Translations under genes and position numbers: made by a program
Shown: positions 5,205 to 13,594 of the stretch, in pieces
Numbering within the stretch: the first letter of the stretch is position 1
Layout of the letters: each line of letters opens with the position of its first letter
Notes under the pieces: generated by a model
Databases searched by the model: none
The model's input: the letters and a program-made list of their open reading frames with translations, nothing else
What the model was told of the DNA's origin: nothing
Source of the DNA: Chloroflexota bacterium
Lineage (GTDB): Bacteria > Chloroflexota > Anaerolineae > Anaerolineales > Villigracilaceae
Direction of reading: 5' to 3'
Length of the DNA stretch: 64,000 bases
NCBI GenBank assembly: GCA_016234495.1
Contig: JACRBI010000024.1
Location: 62,001-126,000 of the forward strand

Positions 5205-5241
5205 CAAAAAACTGAACCGTTTTAGGCGGTTCAGTTTTTTT
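5205..5241. terminator. bidirectional intrinsic terminator
   Basis: The arms ACTGAACCG (5211-5219) and CGGTTCAGT (5227-5235) pair perfectly around a 7-base loop. A-rich sequence lies on the left and a T run on the right, so it can stop both the diguanylate cyclase transcript and the convergent LPNTG-protein transcript. Confidence 0.85.
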
Positions 5242-5261: not shown

Positions 5262-5843
5262 TTATCTGTTCATCGCGGGCGCGGTTCTCAGCCGGCGCGC
5301 AAGCAGGATCACAATGACGAAAGCGAGCGCCATCACCACAAGGCCGGGCAAACCAAATTCATCTGCGAAGCCTGTGTTGGGAAGGGCGGTCGTTGTGACC
5401 ACAACTGTCATTTGCGCGGCGGCGGCCTGGGTATATGCCGCGCCGATGGTGGCTGTATTGGCGATGGCTGTGCTGTCCAACCCCGCAGCTTTGGGAGCCT
5501 GCGGCGTGCCTGCCTCTGTGGCTGTGGCGAGATTCACGACCGAGGTCGGCACCGGTGTGGATGTTGTAGTGGGCAGGCTGAGCAAACCTTCAAAGGTCGC
5601 AGTGAGAGCGTCATTGATAAACGCAGCCGCAGTAGCGGTTGCGTTGGCATTCGCCTGAGCCTGTTGCACAGCGGTCGATCGTCCCCGCAGGTTGAACAAA
5701 TACACTCCCACAAGACAGGCAACTGAGATCAAAATGATCCCGCCTAAAATACTGACAGCGATCATGAACGTGCGGTTGTTGTTTGATTCTTCCGGGAGCG
5801 GCGCTTCGCCGCCATCATCAAAATTAGGTTCATCGAAAGACAT
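5262..5843 (-). CDS. Ala/Thr-rich surface protein with an LPNTG sorting-like signal
   Basis: This 193-residue protein has an acidic N-terminal 22 residues, a transmembrane helix (about 27-50), a long Ala/Thr/Ser-rich extracellular stretch, and then LPNTG at about 154-158. A hydrophobic helix and a basic end (A-R-R-L-R) follow LPNTG. This tripartite C-terminus is the classic sortase cell-wall or pilin sorting signal, yet the protein also has an N-terminal membrane anchor. No sortase gene is in the window. AGGAGA lies 8 bases before the ATG. The gene is 62 bases downstream of the seven-gene minus-strand cluster and may be co-transcribed with it. The stalk composition matches the lipoproteins at 34137, 48920 and 50890. 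Confidence 0.65.
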   Translation of the reverse strand: MSFDEPNFDDGGEAPLPEESNNNRTFMIAVSILGGIILISVACLVGVYLFNLRGRSTAVQQAQANANATATAAAFINDALTATFEGLLSLPTTTSTPVPTSVVNLATATEAGTPQAPKAAGLDSTAIANTATIGAAYTQAAAAQMTVVVTTTALPNTGFADEFGLPGLVVMALAFVIVILLARRLRTAPAMNR

Positions 5844-5904: not shown

Positions 5905-6960
5905 TTATCCCACAACTTCAAGATTAATTAGGGGAGCAATCACTGTCTCGCCATTCTCGAGTTTGACCTCAGCCGCAGGCGCGCGCAAACCGCTTGGGAG
6001 GGTTGTCATCCCGCGCGGAAGAGAAACGATCGAGCCGATCATACCCATCGCCGGCGGACGGCGCATCCGCACCTGCAAGCCCGGGGAAAATTCTTCCGCT
6101 TCATGCGGGGCAGGCGGGTCGGAAAATGTCGGCAGCAGGATGACCGCCTCGGGACGCGCGCCGCTATAACGGTCATAGACTTCCGCGTTCACGGTCACAT
6201 CGCGTTTGGCATTCGTGCTGAGTAATTTATAAGCGGCGGAATTCATCGGCAGGGAACCGAAGCCTTCAGTCACCATGATCGGATAACGCATCTCGCGCGC
6301 CAACGGGATGAGGGACGGATACAGGCTCGAAAGGATCAGTCCCCGCACCGGAAGTTCAGCGGCGGCTTTCAATACATCAGCATCCTTGACCATACCCGCC
6401 AACAGGATCGAACCGCGCAAGCTGACGTCCAGGCGGCTGGCCGCAAGCACGCCATCAGGGCCTTCGGCAATATTAATCAGCGAACCTGTGTCAATTCGGC
6501 CATTGCCCCAAACGCCCTGCACCAAAGCGCCGGCAGTTTGGATGATCGCGCCGCGATTCGGTACGATCTCGACCACGGTGCCGGGCAGCCCCGCGCGCAA
6601 TTCCATTTTCGGGTCACCGATTTCGAGCAGGATTTGTCCGCCGCCAACCACAGCCACACGTCCTTCACGCGGAGTACGGACACTGCGCGGGAAAAGTCCC
6701 TTCCCAACCGCCACTTCTGTATTGGCTGGAACACGGTCATCAACTTTAATTTTGATCAGGCGGTCCGCAGCAGCCGGGCTGACCTGCAATATGCGAGCCA
6801 CATCCAAAAGGACATGCTCGCGCGGCCAATTGACCTCGGCGATCACGTCATTTGGGCTGACTTTCTGGTTGAGGCGCACAACCACCGTGCCGGAAACCGG
6901 CAGCAACCGCTCGCGCACAATGGATGTGAGACCAACGATATGATTTACAGGCGCTTGCAT
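5905..6960 (-). CDS. conserved-type soluble protein with barrel-sandwich-like segments, last gene of the MutL-like cluster
   Basis: No named family is recognised for this 351-residue protein. The first 50 residues (LPVSGTVVVRLNQKVSPND) and residues near 85-115 (T-P-R-E-G-R-V-A-V-V-G-G-G) resemble the beta-hammerhead or barrel-sandwich folds of biotinyl/lipoyl carriers, HlyD and RnfC, but no biotinylation lysine motif is present. A middle region (about 150-260) has Rossmann-like alternation (GILLAG..., GLILSSLYPSLIPLA). The C-terminus is rich in short beta strands. No signal peptide or transmembrane helix is seen. The ATG lies 3 bases after the stop of the MutL-like ATPase gene, which implies translational coupling and a shared job. 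Function is unknown. Confidence 0.6.
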   Translation of the reverse strand: MQAPVNHIVGLTSIVRERLLPVSGTVVVRLNQKVSPNDVIAEVNWPREHVLLDVARILQVSPAAADRLIKIKVDDRVPANTEVAVGKGLFPRSVRTPREGRVAVVGGGQILLEIGDPKMELRAGLPGTVVEIVPNRGAIIQTAGALVQGVWGNGRIDTGSLINIAEGPDGVLAASRLDVSLRGSILLAGMVKDADVLKAAAELPVRGLILSSLYPSLIPLAREMRYPIMVTEGFGSLPMNSAAYKLLSTNAKRDVTVNAEVYDRYSGARPEAVILLPTFSDPPAPHEAEEFSPGLQVRMRRPPAMGMIGSIVSLPRGMTTLPSGLRAPAAEVKLENGETVIAPLINLEVVG

Positions 6961-6963
6961 GGG

Positions 6964-8721
6964 CTACTCGCCTCCAATCGTCCAGTTCCATTTTTTGATG
7001 AGTTCGCGCCGGCGCACCGCATCTGCGGGCAGATCCAACGGACGACCGCGCCCATCGAAGACGACGCCGAGCGCGCCGCCGCTGACGGGAATCGTTCCGC
7101 CGCGGCCGGGGCCAAACCCGACATCCGCGCCATGCAAACATTGGATGCTTAACTTGCCAGCCTCGCCGTTTTGCAACGGCAGGGTTTCAAGGCTGCCATA
7201 CTTTAACTCGACGCGGGATTCGACTCCATTTTCGTAGGTCAGCTTTCCGCGCAGAATGAGCGTCCCATATTTGGCAGAGACTACCGGGGAGACAACAGTC
7301 CCTACGCTGAGGAACGCGCCGGACTCAAGCACCTGCACCGGCAGGATGTTGTTTTGCGAGGCGGCTGCTCCCAACAAGGGAAGCAGGTTGTTTTGATCGA
7401 GGATGACGGTAGTCACACCGACAGGCTGGAGCGAGTCCAGGAGCAGGAGCAGGCCCTGACCGGGGCGCGAAGCGTCGCTCAGCGCGCCGCCGCCCGCGAG
7501 GATCGGCTCAAAGAGCGGAGTCAGATTCTGTTTGATGGTCGCAATGTTGCGCGGGAAATCGCGGCGCGCAGATTGCATCGCAAGGTAAAGCGCCTGCCGC
7601 GTAACCGCCTGGGATATGGCCAGGTCTTCGCGGGTGGCAGCGATGGCCGCCGGGTACAATGACTTTTGATAGAGATAGTCGCGCAGAACTCCGCTGGAAA
7701 TATCGAGCGGCGACCAGCGCATAATGTCTTCGAGCGACGTGTAGTTGAGCAGTCCCGCCAGATTTTCGCCCAGCCCAAATTGAGGGTAGACGTTCAAGGT
7801 GGATTTGTCTTTGAAGCCTGCCGAAATCGTCGCGGCTGATGCGCCGATATCCACAGCCAGGATGCCTTTTTTCACACCGTACACTTTCGCGAGGAAGCGC
7901 ACCATGCGCCCGGTGGCGTAGGCGGTCGGCAGGATATGCCCGCCGGACCATTGATCCAGCAGTTCCACGCCTTTGAGCTGGTGCTTGCGAATGCTGATGA
8001 GCATGTGCGCCAGTTCGCGCTGCGCGGGTTCAAGGTCTTCCGTTTCAAGCGAGGGGCGCACGTTCGGGCTGAGGTGCAGCGATGCCGTCAGCGGCCCGAA
8101 CATATCCCTGACCTCGTCACCGATTTTTTCATTGCCTGCAAACAAAACAGCGGGGCGTTTTTCTGAGGGCAGTAAAAAGCTGGCAAGCCCCACCGGTTCA
8201 AGAAGTTTTTTTATGGAACGCGATGCGCCGCCGTCTGTGCCGCCGGTAATCACAAGCAGGTCAGGCCGCATCCGAATGATACTGTCGATCTGCTGTTCGG
8301 GCTTGCGGAGGTCGTTCATGCCGATGGTCTCGACGATGCGCGCATAAGTCGATTCAGTGAGTCTGCGCGCGCTTTCGAGCGAGACATCTTTCAGCAGGCC
8401 CACAATGACCGCGCGGATGGTTGCGCCTGCGGATATGGTGACGACCAGCGCATCCACGCCCGACCCGTTGGGCTGGCCCGGCGTAATGAGGTTGCCATGC
8501 GCGTCGAGCAGTGACCTGCCAAGGAGCGCCTGCAAGTTTCCGATTGCCTGGCGCGCGCCCTCGCCGATATCCTTGAAGGGCGCTTCAGCCGTCGAAGGCG
8601 CGATGCCGGAAGCAATGAAGCGGTATTCGCTTTCGACCACATCAAAGAGAACTGCGCGCGTATTTGCCGCGCCGACATCCACAGCAAGCAGAGAGTTTCC
8701 GTCAACCAATGATGAAGGCAT
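6964..8721 (-). CDS. MutL-like (glutamate mutase L family) ASKHA ATPase
   Basis: This 585-residue protein has two actin/Hsp70/sugar-kinase-fold halves. The first phosphate loop is LAVDVGAANTRAVLFD (about residues 12-27). A matching loop, ILAVDIGASAATISAGF, opens the second half near 288, and the adenosine-loop-like ILAGGGALSD lies near 415. The layout and the segment RPDLLVITGGTDGG match the glutamate mutase L family, which is thought to act as an ATP-dependent reactivating or folding factor for B12 enzymes. No glutamate mutase, methylaspartate ammonia-lyase or cobalamin-binding protein is nearby. Instead the gene sits 2-3 bases from membrane and zinc-ribbon protein genes, so its client here is probably different. 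Confidence 0.75.
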   Translation of the reverse strand: MPSSLVDGNSLLAVDVGAANTRAVLFDVVESEYRFIASGIAPSTAEAPFKDIGEGARQAIGNLQALLGRSLLDAHGNLITPGQPNGSGVDALVVTISAGATIRAVIVGLLKDVSLESARRLTESTYARIVETIGMNDLRKPEQQIDSIIRMRPDLLVITGGTDGGASRSIKKLLEPVGLASFLLPSEKRPAVLFAGNEKIGDEVRDMFGPLTASLHLSPNVRPSLETEDLEPAQRELAHMLISIRKHQLKGVELLDQWSGGHILPTAYATGRMVRFLAKVYGVKKGILAVDIGASAATISAGFKDKSTLNVYPQFGLGENLAGLLNYTSLEDIMRWSPLDISSGVLRDYLYQKSLYPAAIAATREDLAISQAVTRQALYLAMQSARRDFPRNIATIKQNLTPLFEPILAGGGALSDASRPGQGLLLLLDSLQPVGVTTVILDQNNLLPLLGAAASQNNILPVQVLESGAFLSVGTVVSPVVSAKYGTLILRGKLTYENGVESRVELKYGSLETLPLQNGEAGKLSIQCLHGADVGFGPGRGGTIPVSGGALGVVFDGRGRPLDLPADAVRRRELIKKWNWTIGGE

Positions 8722-8723
8722 AA

Positions 8724-9407
8724 TTACAGAAAGTTCCCGATGAAATTAATAAGCGACATGATGCGTTCGATGAAGGCGGTCAATGCGGCGGCATAAACCC
8801 CCGCGAAGACCGCGCCCAATGTGATGCCGATGAAGATGCGCCCGACCCACGCGGATAATTCGATCAAGCCCATGCGGTGCAGGGAGCCGTCCGCTTTGGG
8901 GCGCGCGCCAAAATGAAAATATGTCAGGGTGAAGATCGTGCCGGCGAGGATGATCGAGCCGTTGAACAACGACTCAACCGGGCTGATGTTACGCAAATTT
9001 GCCGCAAACAGGTCAAACGGCTCGATGCTCCCCATCACCTGCGGAATGAGAGTCCCTGCCACCGCGCCGAAGATCGTTACTGCCGCGCCTACGCCAACGA
9101 TGAACGCCATCGCAATGCGCGCCATGCCGGCCAGCCGCGGAGATATTTTCATGAAGATCAGCACCGCGCCGATCAAAGGCACAAGCATGAAACTCTTTTC
9201 AAGCATCGAGCCAAAGACCAGCGGGTAGATCAGCCGCGGATAGATTACCTGCCACCAGGCGATCGCAGCAATGTAGCCCGAAGATACGCCGACAAAAATA
9301 TAGACCGCAATCCGAAAGAGCGGATTATCTCCGATCAAATAACTAAAAATAAGCAGGGTGAATAAAAAGCTCAGAATGCCTGTGATCAGGTCAAGAGAGA
9401 TTGCCAT
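8724..9407 (-). CDS. polytopic membrane protein in the MutL-like cluster
   Basis: This 227-residue hydrophobic protein is not recognised. About six transmembrane segments can be seen (roughly residues 8-27, 33-52, 72-90, 100-125, 145-165 and 190-220). The ATG at 9407 was chosen over an upstream in-frame ATG at 9440: it lies one base after the TAA of the preceding gene, in the arrangement TAA-C-ATG, with GAGG just upstream. The upstream start would make a 32-base overlap. A G-V-G-A-A-V-T-I-F-G-A-V-A-G glycine/alanine-rich helix suggests tight helix packing. The gene is followed after 2 bases by the MutL-like ATPase, so a membrane partner for that ATPase is the simplest reading. Confidence 0.65.
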   Translation of the reverse strand: MAISLDLITGILSFLFTLLIFSYLIGDNPLFRIAVYIFVGVSSGYIAAIAWWQVIYPRLIYPLVFGSMLEKSFMLVPLIGAVLIFMKISPRLAGMARIAMAFIVGVGAAVTIFGAVAGTLIPQVMGSIEPFDLFAANLRNISPVESLFNGSIILAGTIFTLTYFHFGARPKADGSLHRMGLIELSAWVGRIFIGITLGAVFAGVYAAALTAFIERIMSLINFIGNFL

Positions 9408-9408
9408 G

Positions 9409-11916
9409 TTACTTTGCCTCCCTTGCCGCGGCGCGGTCACGCAGACCCAATGCCAGGTTTATCAACCCGCCGCCCAACATTAAAGCCATGGCAAGGTACA
9501 TGCCGAGGCTGTAGGCATCCCAATAATTTCGAGCAGTCGTTCCGCCGTAAGTTTGGTCCACCACTGCCCCGCCGTACAAACCAGTGACCAGCCCGCTGAC
9601 CTGACGCGAGTCAAAGTATGGCTGAATCATCGGGGCGGCTTGCGCGCTGGAAATTACCAGAACGGGAATGTCTCCGCGGGTGGATGTAGTCTGCTCGATC
9701 CAGGCGCGGGTTGAGTTGGCATTATCTGAAATAATGATCAATACCGCAAATTGTGAGAGCGAAGTGATTCCCTGCAGCTGCGGAGAAGTCCACACGGGAG
9801 ATAGGGAGATGTCGAAGGGAGCGGCGGCAGGCGGATTTTTCCCAAAGGCACGGATGCCCATTTGTCCGCCGGGCAGGTAGCCCAAATTCAAAGGTTGGAT
9901 TCCGCTTTCGGCGCCGAGCCCGGCCAAAGGTCCAGAGATGAAGCGCCCGGCCAGCAATCCGCCGGTTTCGTTGGTGGCGATAAATGTCAGGTTTGGATTC
10001 TTTAAATGTTTAAATATCGGAGCGGCAGCCGCTTCCATTTCACCGACGCGGGCGGGTTCGTAATCAATTGCCACAAGCACAGGCGCGCCTTCGGGGATGG
10101 ATTGCGCCACCCGCATGGCTTCTCTGATCTCGGCTGGGATGCCAACGGGCATGGAGAAAAACTGAGTTCCCATAACTTGGGCGGGGACTAAAACTGCAAA
10201 CAATATGAAGGTGATCGCCCATCTTAATCCGCGCGATCCCTTGAGCGAGGTGAAAGATGCAATGGGAACGGGGGCTGTCTCTGCGGCGAGGATTTGTTCG
10301 AGGAATGCCGCGTGTGTTTGCTGTTCTTCGCTGGCATTTAATTTGATCGAATAGGCTTTTGGTTTGCTGGTGGCGGTAAACCCTGCAACTGCGGGAAGCA
10401 CGCCCTGCAAGCCGGCCAACGCTCCGCGTGTTTCGAGTGTTTCATCGCTCAACTCGCCGGAGCCTACCGGGCGCATTGCCTGCACCCATGAAGGCAGGTC
10501 GCCGGGCGCAATTGAGTCTGTGCCTGCGGCCGGAAGCTGGCTTAATAAGTTCGGGTTTTCGGTCGCCTTTGAAAGCCAGTCGGGCATGTCGGTGAAGAGC
10601 GCATCCATGTTGTAACTTGCCTGCGCGTCCGGGGTAAACGCGGGCGGCGCAGAACCAGGCGGCTCATCTGCGGCAAATGCCGGCGTGGGCTGCGCGTCGC
10701 TGGATGTCTTGAGCCAGTCGGGTGTGTCAAAAGATTCGACGGCAGGCTGTTCGTCGGCATAAATGGAGGATTGCGGCGCGGCGGCTTTCAGCCAGTTCGG
10801 AATGTCGGCAAACGACGGAGTTTCTTCCGACGCCGGCTCTTCAGTTTGAGCAGGCAGGTCAGGCGATAACCAGACAGGTATTTCCGCCTCTGCAGATGTT
10901 GCAGGGGTTTCTTCCTTCAACCAGTTGGGGACAGTGCCCTGGCGCGGCTTTTCGCTTTCAGAAGGAGGAGGACTATCCATCCACTCCGGCAGTTTGCCGC
11001 TGGATGAGCCTTCGGCCGCTTCAAACGCACCCGGGCTTGATCTTGAAAGATCTGCGGTAGCGCCGGCGCTTTTAGATGACCCGCCCAGCGCGCGCAGCCA
11101 GTCTGGTTGATCAGAGAGAGGAGCAGAAGCCGCATCGCTTTCTTCGTCTGCGGTGGTCGCCTGCGGGTCGTCGTCAGTTGATAAACTTCGCAGCCAATCC
11201 GGTGTATCAGAGGCTGCGGAAATTTCAGCCGCATCCAATGGACGCGTATTATCTCTTTGTGCCTGACTGTCAGCAACCATCTTACGCAGCCAATCCGGCG
11301 TCTCATCAGACAAGGCAGGCGGAGTTGTAAAAGGATTCTCTGTTACGGGCGCTGGTTCAGGCTGCTGTGGTTGAATTCCGCTTGCATCGCGGAACCAGTC
11401 GTTCAGCTCATCTTTTTCACTTGCTGATTCTGGCCGGGCACCTGAGCCGGTTTCGAGAGTTTCTTTCGGGGCAAAATCATTTACGCCGCCTAATTCCACC
11501 CAGCGCACCTCGGATGATTCAGGCTCGTCCTTTTTTGATTTCGGAGAATCGCCGGTTAAGCCTGCCAGCCACTCGGGGGTTTCTTCTTCGTCGCTGGTCG
11601 TTTTTTGGTTTTGCAGACCAGCTAACAGGTCAAAGCCGGAAGCGTTGAACGATTCCTGCTTATGCTTCTCCTGCGGGGTAAGTTCATGTTCGGTGGATTT
11701 CCGCGCAGAATCGCGCGCATCCCTTAGCCATTGTGGAAGGATCGGTTCAAGTTCGGCGGTATTCTTCTTGGTTGGAGCCTGCCCGGGTTTAATGGGAGCG
11801 TCGGCGCCTTTGAGGTCACCGGTCAGCGGCACCAATCGCGATTGGCAATACTGGCAGAATTCCTGATCGGTCAGATTGTTTTCGCCGCAAACCAAACACT
11901 TGATGACGTCTGCCAT
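9409..11916 (-). CDS. zinc-ribbon membrane protein with 13 PxWL motifs
   Basis: This 835-residue protein opens with a zinc ribbon (Cys7, Cys10, Cys21, Cys24). Residues about 35-470 are acidic, Pro/Ser/Ala-rich and almost certainly disordered, but are punctuated by a short motif of the form P-x-W-L followed by a basic or small residue: PQWL, PEWL, NDWF, PDWL three times, PEWM, PNWL, PVWL, PNWL, PDWL twice, and PSWV. A folded C-terminal region (about 500-800) lies between two hydrophobic segments (near 560 and 800), giving a likely periplasm-facing or extracellular domain with strands such as VLVAIDYEPARV. The zinc ribbon and motif region would be cytoplasmic. The gene abuts its upstream neighbour (TAAATG). 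No function is known to me. Confidence 0.7.
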   Translation of the reverse strand: MADVIKCLVCGENNLTDQEFCQYCQSRLVPLTGDLKGADAPIKPGQAPTKKNTAELEPILPQWLRDARDSARKSTEHELTPQEKHKQESFNASGFDLLAGLQNQKTTSDEEETPEWLAGLTGDSPKSKKDEPESSEVRWVELGGVNDFAPKETLETGSGARPESASEKDELNDWFRDASGIQPQQPEPAPVTENPFTTPPALSDETPDWLRKMVADSQAQRDNTRPLDAAEISAASDTPDWLRSLSTDDDPQATTADEESDAASAPLSDQPDWLRALGGSSKSAGATADLSRSSPGAFEAAEGSSSGKLPEWMDSPPPSESEKPRQGTVPNWLKEETPATSAEAEIPVWLSPDLPAQTEEPASEETPSFADIPNWLKAAAPQSSIYADEQPAVESFDTPDWLKTSSDAQPTPAFAADEPPGSAPPAFTPDAQASYNMDALFTDMPDWLSKATENPNLLSQLPAAGTDSIAPGDLPSWVQAMRPVGSGELSDETLETRGALAGLQGVLPAVAGFTATSKPKAYSIKLNASEEQQTHAAFLEQILAAETAPVPIASFTSLKGSRGLRWAITFILFAVLVPAQVMGTQFFSMPVGIPAEIREAMRVAQSIPEGAPVLVAIDYEPARVGEMEAAAAPIFKHLKNPNLTFIATNETGGLLAGRFISGPLAGLGAESGIQPLNLGYLPGGQMGIRAFGKNPPAAAPFDISLSPVWTSPQLQGITSLSQFAVLIIISDNANSTRAWIEQTTSTRGDIPVLVISSAQAAPMIQPYFDSRQVSGLVTGLYGGAVVDQTYGGTTARNYWDAYSLGMYLAMALMLGGGLINLALGLRDRAAAREAK

Positions 11917-12528
11917 TTAATTGCCCCCGTAAGGACGGTCTGCGCCGAATAAGACACGCAGGCCGGTAGTCAATGTGCCAAGCGCAACGCCGATCAAAAT
12001 TCCGCGCGCGCCGCCAAGCGCCAGAACCTGCGTGATCCACGGGCGTATGAATGTGCCAAGCACGGGCATGTTCCCAAACGGCAAAGTAGCCGACCCGAGA
12101 ATCAAAAGCGCGGCTGTCACCAAAAAGACGAGGCTCATAAAATCTGCGCGGCGGCGCAGAAGGCGGATTGCGGCATAGAGCAGTGAAACGGTCAGCAAGC
12201 CCATCAGCGCGGCTTCGATCGGAATGATCACTCCGTTCAGAATAATGTCCATCGCCTCATGATCGGGGCGCAGGATCATCGCGAAAAGGAATGTGACGAC
12301 CAGCGAGATAAGAAGCAGGATGCTGTATCCGCTCCCCTTTTCCTGACGGCGGATCTTATCTGAATGAACGGATACCAGATTGAAGATGCCGACGAGCGCG
12401 GCTGTTCCGGCGAGGATGACCGCCCAATTCAACAGCAAGGTTTGCACGTCCGCAAGCGCAGGCAGGAAATATCCACCCAATACCAAAATACCCGCTGCAA
12501 TTGCAATTACGGCTGTAAAGACTCGCAT
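11917..12528 (-). CDS. six-helix membrane protein in the MutL-like cluster
   Basis: About six transmembrane helices are visible in these 203 residues (near 4-24, 32-52, 70-88, 98-122, 130-148 and 168-190). Basic loops (K-I-R-R-Q-E-K and L-L-R-R-R) mark the cytoplasmic sides. The family is not recognised and no catalytic motif is seen. The start codon overlaps the stop of the upstream gene by one base (TAATG), and its own stop abuts the ATG of the PxWL protein, so it must be made together with both. It may be a membrane scaffold or channel subunit of a complex with the 8724-9407 product, which has a similar helix count. Confidence 0.65.
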   Translation of the reverse strand: MRVFTAVIAIAAGILVLGGYFLPALADVQTLLLNWAVILAGTAALVGIFNLVSVHSDKIRRQEKGSGYSILLLISLVVTFLFAMILRPDHEAMDIILNGVIIPIEAALMGLLTVSLLYAAIRLLRRRADFMSLVFLVTAALLILGSATLPFGNMPVLGTFIRPWITQVLALGGARGILIGVALGTLTTGLRVLFGADRPYGGN

Positions 12529-13259
12529 TAGATCACCCCAATTAGTTTGGCTGCCGCGCCGCCCAGCAACGCCAAGATGACGAACCAGCGCATAATATCC
12601 TGCAATGTCAGGCTGGCTATGTGAGAAGCCCCGGCGCCAAGGTATGCCCCAGCAGCGAAAAGTTCCTCCCCGATCAATGCGTCCTGAGTATTTGCAAAAA
12701 GAACGGATTGCCCGCTCAGTTCATCGCTGGCGCCGATCAATATCATATTTTCCCGGTCCGATGCTTCGGCAAGAAGTCCGGCTTCCGAGCCAAAATGTCC
12801 GACAACAATATTGGCGGAGACATTTTCATTTTTCATAATGTTCATCGCGCCGGCGGCATACCCGAATGGGCTCAACCCTGTCACACGTCCGCTGGTAGGA
12901 ACGTATAATTCTTCCACGGCGGCAGCCTGATAGCCGGCCTGCAATGTATCCTGAGTCAGCAAGCCGAGGGTCGGGTCACCGGCAGATGCAACAGATGGTT
13001 TATCGCTCGTGGAGGTCCGTTCTGCAATATGGCGTAATAATGCGAGTCCTGCCAGGGCAGATCCGCCGCGCGCATCGAGCAGGCTTCCACTTCCGAGTGA
13101 GATATGCAGGCGGGTGCCATCCTCAATGCTCAGACCAAGTGTGCGATAAAGGCGCGTCAGGGCGGGGATCTCGCGCAGGTTGGCCGGCGATTTGCGCTTC
13201 CATAATGTAATTGCAAACAACAAGACAGCGCTTGCCAGGATAATGATCAACTCATTCAT
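12528..13259 (-). CDS. membrane-anchored protein resembling DUF6754
   Basis: This 243-residue protein has one helix at each end (about 3-18 and 222-241) and a soluble domain between. The domain contains LHISLGSGSLLDARGGSALAG, then a segment with R-H-I-A-E-R-T, then QDTLQAGYQAA, PFGYAAGAM and VVGHFGSEAGLLAE. From memory these match the DUF6754 family, whose function is not established; the assignment needs a profile search. Many small residues and alternating strands and helices suggest an alpha/beta fold. The start overlaps the stop of the 13256 gene by four bases (ATGA) and the stop overlaps the next start by one base, so it is translationally coupled on both sides. Confidence 0.65.
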   Translation of the reverse strand: MNELIIILASAVLLFAITLWKRKSPANLREIPALTRLYRTLGLSIEDGTRLHISLGSGSLLDARGGSALAGLALLRHIAERTSTSDKPSVASAGDPTLGLLTQDTLQAGYQAAAVEELYVPTSGRVTGLSPFGYAAGAMNIMKNENVSANIVVGHFGSEAGLLAEASDRENMILIGASDELSGQSVLFANTQDALIGEELFAAGAYLGAGASHIASLTLQDIMRWFVILALLGGAAAKLIGVI

Positions 13260-13501
13260 GCTGAGGCCTGTTCATGGGTCAGAAAGGAGGCGAACGTGCG
13301 CGCTTCGTTTTCCTCTTCAAGGGTTATTGCCAACGCTGTCAGTTGATCGCTTTCGATCAATCCCCGGCTAAAATAAAGCGCCTGCGCTCCAAGCAGAGTA
13401 AGAGGACTTCCAGCTTCAAGGAGCGAGGCGATGAGTTCGTGAAGTTGGTAACGGCGCAGGGTTTCCGCCCAACGCGGCCAATATTCGCGCGACGACTTCA
13501 T
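13256..13501 (-). CDS. small helical protein, first gene of the MutL-like cluster
   Basis: This protein of 81 residues from the ATG at 13501 (87 if the in-frame ATG at 13519 is used) is soluble and probably all-helical, with the pattern WAETLRRYQLHELIASLLEAG and a run of acidic residues (LEEENEARTF). It is not recognised. Neither start has a Shine-Dalgarno sequence. TATACT on the minus strand at 13515-13510 would place transcription start close to 13503, so a leaderless mRNA beginning at the ATG at 13501 is possible. Its stop overlaps the next start by four bases (ATGA). Being first in the cluster, it may be a cytoplasmic regulator or adaptor. Confidence 0.55.
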   Translation of the reverse strand: MKSSREYWPRWAETLRRYQLHELIASLLEAGSPLTLLGAQALYFSRGLIESDQLTALAITLEEENEARTFASFLTHEQASA

Positions 13502-13594
13502 ATAACGCGAGTATAGCATAATTTTAAGGTTGGCTTGAGTTATATAGCATCGCTTGAAATTGCAGGTGGCTTGCAGTTTATATGGCTTTGAAAA

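Follow-up and report, generated by a model that had tools for sequence, protein, structure and literature searches.

A DUF6754 membrane gene set and a MutL-like ATPase gene set form two recurring modules in a tightly coupled Chloroflexota gene cluster

GlmL, an accessory ATPase of glutamate mutase that belongs to the ASKHA-fold MutL family, is thought to reactivate that enzyme. Rnf complexes contain two membrane proteins with six transmembrane (TM) helices each, and these six-TM subunits have conserved, Fe-S-associated cysteines. The tails of FtsN and PilN bind the actin-like proteins FtsA and PilM, respectively, in an interdomain cleft (PMC7613929). Here, we compare with these systems a cluster of seven genes, g1 to g7, from a Chloroflexota bacterium (Anaerolineales; Villigracilaceae; GenBank assembly GCA_016234495.1). 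The window, that is, the whole stretch of DNA analyzed, comprises 64,000 nucleotides (nt) of contig JACRBI010000024.1 (positions 62,001 to 126,000, forward strand). An earlier note on this DNA had proposed that the cluster is an undescribed membrane system built around a MutL-like ATPase. Our analysis indicates that the genes very probably constitute one functional system in two modules: module M, consisting of g2, g3, the C-terminal part of g4 (g4C, about residues 565 to 825), and g5; and module C, consisting of g1, g6, and g7. The system is real and conserved over a broad range of organisms, and in the literature searched it is undescribed; no publication on DUF6754, the family to which g2 belongs, was found in the literature outside subscription papers and preprints.

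The seven open reading frames all lie on the minus strand at window positions 5905 to 13501, with successive gaps of −4, −1, 0, 1, 2, and 3 nt, so that the coordinates and spacing given in the earlier note were exact. The first, g1 (13256 to 13501), encodes a small helical protein of 81 residues, or 87 residues from an alternative start at 13519. g2 (12528 to 13259) encodes a Rossmann-like domain between two TM helices, g3 (11917 to 12528) a membrane protein with about six TM helices, and g5 (8724 to 9407) a membrane protein with five or six. Between the latter two lies g4 (9409 to 11916), which encodes a zinc ribbon, a long linker with 12 PxWL motifs, and a TM-domain-TM region corresponding to g4C. 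g6 (6964 to 8721) encodes a 585-residue MutL-like ASKHA ATPase with a C-terminal domain of about 115 residues, and g7 (5905 to 6960) encodes a barrel-sandwich domain followed by swivel and KOW/SH3 domains. Hydropathy alone provided the helix counts of g3 and g5, the TM-domain-TM arrangement of g2, and the division of g4 into a 563-residue N-terminal part and a TM-domain-TM part; from charge, the Rossmann-like domain of g2 is predicted to be cytosolic and the g4C domain to lie outside the cell. When the seven proteins were searched against Pfam, families scored above cut-off only for g2 (DUF6754, PF20539; E 6e-27, 94.8 bits, cut-off 27) and g6 (MutL, PF13941; E 2.7e-58, 198 bits, cut-off 27), in agreement with the earlier assignments of these two proteins and, by hydropathy, of two membrane proteins with about six helices. 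No Pfam match at E ≤ 1 was obtained for g1, g3, g5 (with a query two residues short), or g7, and g4 gave only subthreshold matches, the best of them zinc ribbons.

Conservation of the cluster was evaluated first within its phylum. Of 201 Chloroflexota genomes sampled, 44 contain DUF6754, with one match each; none of 14 control genomes has it. Twenty of the 44 DUF6754 regions were fetched, and hidden Markov models (HMMs) built from them were used to find the partner genes. These loci share one common gene order, with g1 present in 19, g2, g3, and g4 in all 20 (one g4 being cut by a contig end), g5 and g6 in 18 each, and g7 in 14. The two loci lacking g5, g6, and g7 (L041 and L042) stop at contig ends, and the genomes of the other four lacking g7 (L047 to L050, which we infer to be Chloroflexia) carry g7 elsewhere. 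When 20 of the 44 genomes, including that of the cluster itself, were searched with a g7 profile, 19 gave a match; the sole exception (G015) is 84% complete. A MutL match at E ≤ 1e-3 accompanies DUF6754 in 43 of the 44 genomes, compared with 66 of the 157 genomes without DUF6754 (Fisher P = 8e-13, ignoring kinship); above the Pfam cut-off, the counts were 43 of 44 and 40 of 157. The recurrence of one gene order throughout the phylum, and of the modules in other phyla, led us to reject chance assembly of the cluster. Even distant Chloroflexota have g1 to g6 arranged in the same order, and the homologs are neither scattered nor divided among separate housekeeping families.

Module M extends well beyond the phylum. 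A contig scan with the DUF6754 alignment returned 440 pattern matches, 379 of which were confirmed and the best 80 kept. The record titles include, among bacteria, Bacillota, Armatimonadetes, WOR-3, TA06, Latescibacterota, Planctomycetota, Deltaproteobacteria, and Eisenbacteria and, among archaea, Bathyarchaeota and "Thermococci archaeon." The Chloroflexota-derived HMMs detect partner genes in these other bacterial phyla and in archaea; on sequence evidence, Chloroflexota are not the only group to have the system. Wherever all four genes are in view, the order g2-g3-g4C-g5 is constant, apart from a few departures. One of these (L115) is weighed below; in L117 there is an additional g2, and in three loci from rumen bacteria (L126, L127, and L130), a single operon has four g4-like genes around g5, which suggests several outer subunits. 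At many loci outside Chloroflexota, the g1 HMM finds its gene next to g2 or g6. The C block stands either before or after M, and g6 and g7 are separated from each other in L090 and L094. Fibronectin type III-like N termini, seen by eye on DUF6754 proteins of other phyla, are not claimed, since Pfam returned only DUF6754 for the protein queried (L112).

A complete g2-g3-g4-g5 set was present in 46 of 47 loci read (7 archaeal and 40 from Bacillota, many of them orthologous), giving 49 sets in total. Gaps inside these sets have a median of 11 nt, and 144 of 148 are 50 nt or shorter, consistent with the conclusion that M is an autonomous operon. The one incomplete locus (L278, positions 6721 to 7798) retains g2 and a 204-nt piece of g3, with no g4 or g5 found, and the module there has apparently decayed. 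M is also repeated in some loci and genomes: seven loci (L086, L091, L097, L100, L117, L118, and L120) have two M sets each, and 16 Bacillota genomes have 1 to 27 DUF6754 matches each (a few genes being split into two matches), although these are draft genomes and the figure of 27 in one bin could be too high. Of 200 genomes from the phylum to which one Bathyarchaeota genome belongs, 4 (counting that genome) have DUF6754, with 3 to 7 matches each. On a Bathyarchaeota contig (L118), two g2-g5 sets in divergent orientation lie alongside two g6-g7 pairs.

Genomes in which M appears alone nearly always encode g7 elsewhere: a g7 test given 30 of the 80 kept DUF6754 loci covered 28 genomes in which no g6-g7 was seen at the fetched locus (some loci being cut short), and g7 was found elsewhere in 27 of them. 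Module C, for its part, changes its neighbors. Of 45 g6 genes in a set rich in Bacillota, 15 (counting the seed locus) have an ATP-binding cassette (ABC) ATPase gene like that of L185 no more than 3.8 kb away, and the other 30 have no such gene nearby. Pfam confirmed ABC_tran and FtsX domains at L181, L185, L186, and L199, and FtsX at L200. Since the neighbors of g6-g7 include zinc-ribbon genes, module M, and FtsX-type ABC transporters, C has several partners. The earlier proposal of a single system is therefore borne out as a conserved gene set but not as an indivisible seven-gene unit, and the phrase "built around" the ATPase was too strong, because many loci contain g2 to g5 by themselves and g6-g7 is also found with different partners. 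Two different g6-g7 pairs are consecutive on one strand in L182 and L190 (Bacillota), hinting at hetero-oligomers. A gene of about 385 residues follows g7 in L188, L218, L219, and L227 (Bacillota); its copies look alike by eye, and the L188 copy had no family match.

Given its name, the MutL-like ATPase g6 might be expected to reactivate a B12-dependent mutase. The PF13941 match would fit such a role, as would the divergent upstream genes of two loci, which by eye resemble a MeaB-type GTPase gene (L033 and L036) and, in L036, also a B12-binding subunit gene. However, g6 scores 97 bits against the NCBIfam equivalog model of GlmL, for which the cut-off is 475 bits (TIGR01319, 76 with a cut-off of 204), and four GlmL proteins of the phylum, 461 to 483 residues long, end at profile position 454 to 457 of 571 and thus lack the additional C-terminal domain of g6. 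Two of these (L201 and L202) have B12-binding-like and mutase-like neighbors, by eye. A FastTree phylogeny separates 110 g6 sequences from the four GlmL with a support of 0.92. The genome of the cluster (G000) has one MutL match and no match to the glutamate mutase E subunit (PF06368), and its nearest B12-binding match is about 134 kb from the cluster, which upholds the statement in the earlier note that no glutamate mutase or other B12 enzyme is nearby. The last two observations led us to reject a B12 reactivase role in this genome, and for the system at large we regard such a role as scarcely credible.

The N-terminal part of g4 begins with a CxxC...CxxC zinc-ribbon pattern, visible by eye, and all 12 of its PxW[LMVIF] motifs lie in residues 61 to 478 (10483 to 11736, minus strand), compared with a mean of 0.34 and a maximum of 4 in 2,000 shuffles. 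The earlier description of a zinc-ribbon/PxWL protein thus holds for this gene, but only as a Chloroflexota feature. None of 61 g4 genes from outside Chloroflexota has the zinc-ribbon pattern or at least two PxWL motifs, and 5 have a single motif; in the same comparison, 13 of 14 Chloroflexota g4 genes have at least two. In other phyla g4 consists of g4C alone, and the zinc-ribbon/PxWL part is missing even from three Chloroflexota loci (L044 to L046). From these pattern counts, the part is taken to be specific to the Chloroflexota lineage. There, the motif also occurs near the ATPase. A zinc-ribbon gene lies just upstream of g6-g7 in 8 of 13 maps read of Chloroflexota loci with MutL and without DUF6754, and five of the eight encode 7 to 15 PxWL motifs and a short basic-aromatic C-terminal tail (judged by eye). 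The g6 proteins of L047 to L050 themselves have a C-terminal extension. It contains two PxWL motifs in each of L047 and L048 but lacks them in L049 and L050, and all four proteins end in a basic-aromatic segment, by eye. A second multi-PxWL protein of genome G000 (L232, positions 7460 to 10675; G000:C38) has 1,071 residues, tetratricopeptide repeat ends, and 14 PxWL motifs; it possibly uses the same docking code. No publication whose title treats a PxWL or PDWL motif was found in the literature outside subscription papers and preprints.

These tails could also be taken to mean that g6 is a polymerizing actin-like scaffold of the FtsA/PilM type that positions membrane complexes within the cell, with g7 and the PxWL/zinc-ribbon proteins serving as anchors and M being recruited. 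The membership of g6 in the ASKHA family, the basic-aromatic tails resembling membrane-targeting ones on 5 of 5 zinc-ribbon/PxWL proteins and on 4 of 4 g6 proteins of L047 to L050, and the precedent of FtsA-FtsN and PilM-PilN peptide contacts (PMC7613929) would all be in keeping with a scaffold. Yet no cell-division genes were recognized beside the cluster in the maps read, and we judge this explanation to be rather improbable.

Structural models were obtained for g2 and g7. The AlphaFold 2 model of g2 (predicted local distance difference test [pLDDT], 93.7) shows the TM-Rossmann-like-TM arrangement. A Foldseek search with it gave nothing at E ≤ 1e-3, and the best VIA-align rows were KtrA (Z 10.2, 113 aligned residues, root-mean-square deviation [rmsd] 2.6), GmhA (Z 9.9, 154 aligned, rmsd 5.2), and MurG (Z 9.9, 133 aligned, rmsd 3.0). 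Since these top rows are tied, only a common Rossmann-like arrangement can be read from them. Conserved acidic residues of g2 (E31, E144, E150, E183, E184, and D206 in profile numbering) may mark its working site. Comparison of the g2 and g4C profiles gave E 0.012 over 188 columns with a probability of 3.6 percent, a weak hint from which no kinship is claimed, and g3 and g5 show no profile similarity that would make them duplicates (hhalign probability, 1.0 percent). In the g7 model (pLDDT, 91.4), residues 14 to 141 form a barrel-sandwich domain similar in VIA-align to biotin carboxyl carrier protein (Z 8.2, 58 aligned, rmsd 1.9) and RnfC (Z 8.0, 61 aligned, rmsd 1.9). Residues 145 to 276 form a swivel domain similar to UPF0107 protein AF_0055 (Z 11.2, 112 aligned, rmsd 2.4), and residues 290 to 351 form a KOW/SH3 domain, whose Z scores of 7.4 to 7.5 are weak alone and are joined by a sequence-profile match to SPT5 KOW (E 2e-6). 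The earlier label of g7 as a barrel-sandwich protein therefore fits its N-terminal third, but two further domains follow. A sequence search of solved structures matched g7 to KOW proteins (SPT5, NusG, and L24) and to biotinyl and NqrA barrels and gave no match for g2, g3, or g6. A glutamate racemase row and weaker rows for g4C (E 0.0036 for the former), rows at E 0.75 for g5, and lysozyme and cutinase rows for g7 were taken as chance.

The KtrA row raises the prospect that C belongs to a signaling chain, with g7 as the output of two-component or FHA signals and M as a gated channel with an RCK-like domain. In seven loci from genomes like those of L047 to L050, in which g7 stands apart from the cluster (L205 to L211), a receiver/kinase gene and then a second receiver-like gene follow g7 in five, as judged by the starts of the sequences, with Pfam applied to L205 and L209 only; in L207 and L210, the second receiver-like gene alone follows g7. 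A gene for an FHA-domain protein also precedes g6-g7 in L182. Nonetheless, the RCK rows for g2 are tied with GmhA, MurG, and dehydrogenases, no potassium-channel family was matched by g3 or g5, and no kinase gene was seen beside g7 in most other maps, so we give the signaling explanation little credence.

Instead, we tentatively propose that M is a membrane machine worked by module C, a statement that, taken in all its parts, has somewhat less than an even chance of being right. M would be an integral membrane complex of the two proteins with about six TM helices and the TM-anchored domains of g2, on the cytosolic side, and g4C, on the outside. C would be a cytosolic ATPase-adaptor composed of g6 and g7, with g1. 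The actin/Hsp70-fold ATPase g6, of the MutL superfamily, would cycle on ATP and act on M via g7. In the Chloroflexota lineage, the zinc-ribbon/PxWL tail of g4 might tether C to the membrane through many weak peptide contacts, with PxWL as a putative ligand; this is suggested by the occurrence of PxWL motifs on g4, g6, or a neighbor of g6-g7 in Chloroflexota together with the FtsA-FtsN and PilM-PilN precedent. M would then most likely move or handle a particular substrate across the membrane, a reading based on its predicted membrane topology and its expansion into paralogs, as in transporter families.

Several observations weigh against this mechanism. Among 20 of the 66 Chloroflexota genomes with MutL and without DUF6754, 17 have a locus with g6-g7 and no M (of the rest, L136 has g2 to g7 and two loci have g6 only), so that C is not dedicated to M. 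That C can adjoin an ABC transporter already equipped with an ATPase argues against a motor role for C. PxWL cannot be central, since it is absent outside Chloroflexota. In L115, g2 is accompanied by a 538-residue g3 with a long N-terminal part, and g4 and g5 were undetected downstream. M occurs as a single copy in the Chloroflexota loci, where no catabolic neighbor of the tested kind was seen. The kinds tested were peptidase M20 and Amidohydro_1 (PF01546 and PF01979), chosen after amidohydrolases had been seen beside modules and analyzed in 20 DUF6754 genomes with the best 150 matches per family and 146 DUF6754 positions, 5 rows (second pieces or short ends) having been dropped. Neither was significantly enriched within 10 kb of M (13 pairs versus 9.9 expected for M20 and 14 versus 10.4 for Amidohydro_1, with contig ends lowering the observed counts), whereas a control pair, amidohydrolase near M20, gave 14 versus 5.3 expected within 5 kb.

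A second comparison of neighbor genes gave a mixed result. An Amidohydro_3 family, which we take to be D-aminoacylase-like and which Pfam and NCBIfam call only amidohydrolase, accounts for 9 of 181 genes near M versus 3 of 620 (P = 1.5e-4), with both family and seed picked post hoc from the same loci. An M20 family, presumably AbgB-like, showed no enrichment (4 of 181 versus 11 of 620). In L250, L253, and L260, the amidohydrolase gene of this comparison immediately follows g5 on the same strand. With no significant enrichment for two families and a post hoc choice of the third, the inference of a catabolic transporter from neighbor genes was rejected.

The changing partners of C also accommodate a reading in which g6-g7 is a general remodeling or reactivation chaperone for membrane complexes, with M and the FtsX-type ABC transporters as clients and M requiring no energy from C. 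C adjoins at least two unrelated membrane modules and occurs without M, g6 belongs to the GlmL superfamily, and M outnumbers g7 in the genome with the highest copy number (G201), which has 27 DUF6754 matches versus 9 g7 matches (some of the latter being pieces of one gene). On the other hand, a MutL match is kept in 43 of 44 DUF6754 genomes of Chloroflexota, from which M seems to need it, and no damaged cofactor or client came to light. We consider the chaperone explanation unlikely, though it deserves serious attention. A wider class might also be envisaged: bacterial and archaeal transport machines with a core of DUF6754, two six-TM proteins, and an outer Rossmann-like subunit, in which an actin/Hsp70-fold ATPase and a barrel-sandwich adaptor replace the P-loop motor and in which the same kind of ATPase-adaptor serves FtsX-type ABC transporters. 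This generalization is doubtful but conceivable.

A multisubunit membrane complex that is kept across several bacterial phyla and archaea, and in multiple copies in some genomes, normally has an important job. The gene grammar described here (M as g2 to g5, C as g6-g7, with a change of partners) yields testable predictions and would bring DUF6754 together, in one defined system, with a family that generally takes its name from glutamate mutase. Should C indeed work M, an actin-fold ATPase would be added to the energizers of membrane machines.

Around the cluster, glgC lies 141 nt upstream of g1 on the same strand. Downstream, 61 nt after g7, g8 (5262 to 5843, minus strand) encodes a two-TM low-complexity protein with relatives in 8 of the 20 Chloroflexota loci and is probably an accessory protein. 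Its C-terminal end has an LPxTG-like motif, a TM helix, and a basic tail, and its TIGR01167 score is just under the cut-off. A terminator-like hairpin, by consensus match only, follows g8 at 5206 to 5240; 17 such hairpins occur in the region versus 12.8 in shuffles.

Compared with the systems introduced above, g6 shares the ASKHA fold and Pfam family (PF13941) of GlmL/MutL but carries the domain of about 115 residues that the four GlmL proteins lack, and it lies with g7 and M, not with mutase genes, in a genome with no glutamate mutase E subunit. PilM-PilN and FtsA-FtsN resemble the cluster in combining an actin-fold ATPase with a membrane-anchored partner that has a long cytosolic tail. However, no pilin, pilus ATPase, or FtsZ was recognized among the cluster genes, and the g4 tail differs by its 12 PxWL repeats and zinc ribbon; membership in these systems is not claimed. 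The likeness to Rnf/Nqr consists of a predicted cytosolic barrel-sandwich subunit (g7; RnfC, Z 8.0) and two six-TM proteins, but the conserved positions of g3 and g5 include no cysteine, for which reason Rnf/Nqr-like electron transport was rejected, and no flavin or Fe-S family is among the Pfam matches of the cluster proteins. Some FtsX/MacB ABC transporters of Bacillota adjoin g6-g7, whereas g1 to g8 have no PF00005 or PF02687 match at E ≤ 1. With respect to KtrAB/Trk, g3 and g5 match no Trk/Ktr pore family (no Pfam family at E ≤ 1), and the similarity of g2 to the KtrA RCK fold (Z 10.2) is equaled by unrelated Rossmann folds. Finally, g2 is a member of DUF6754 (PF20539), a family without a described function that is found here inside a four-gene module.

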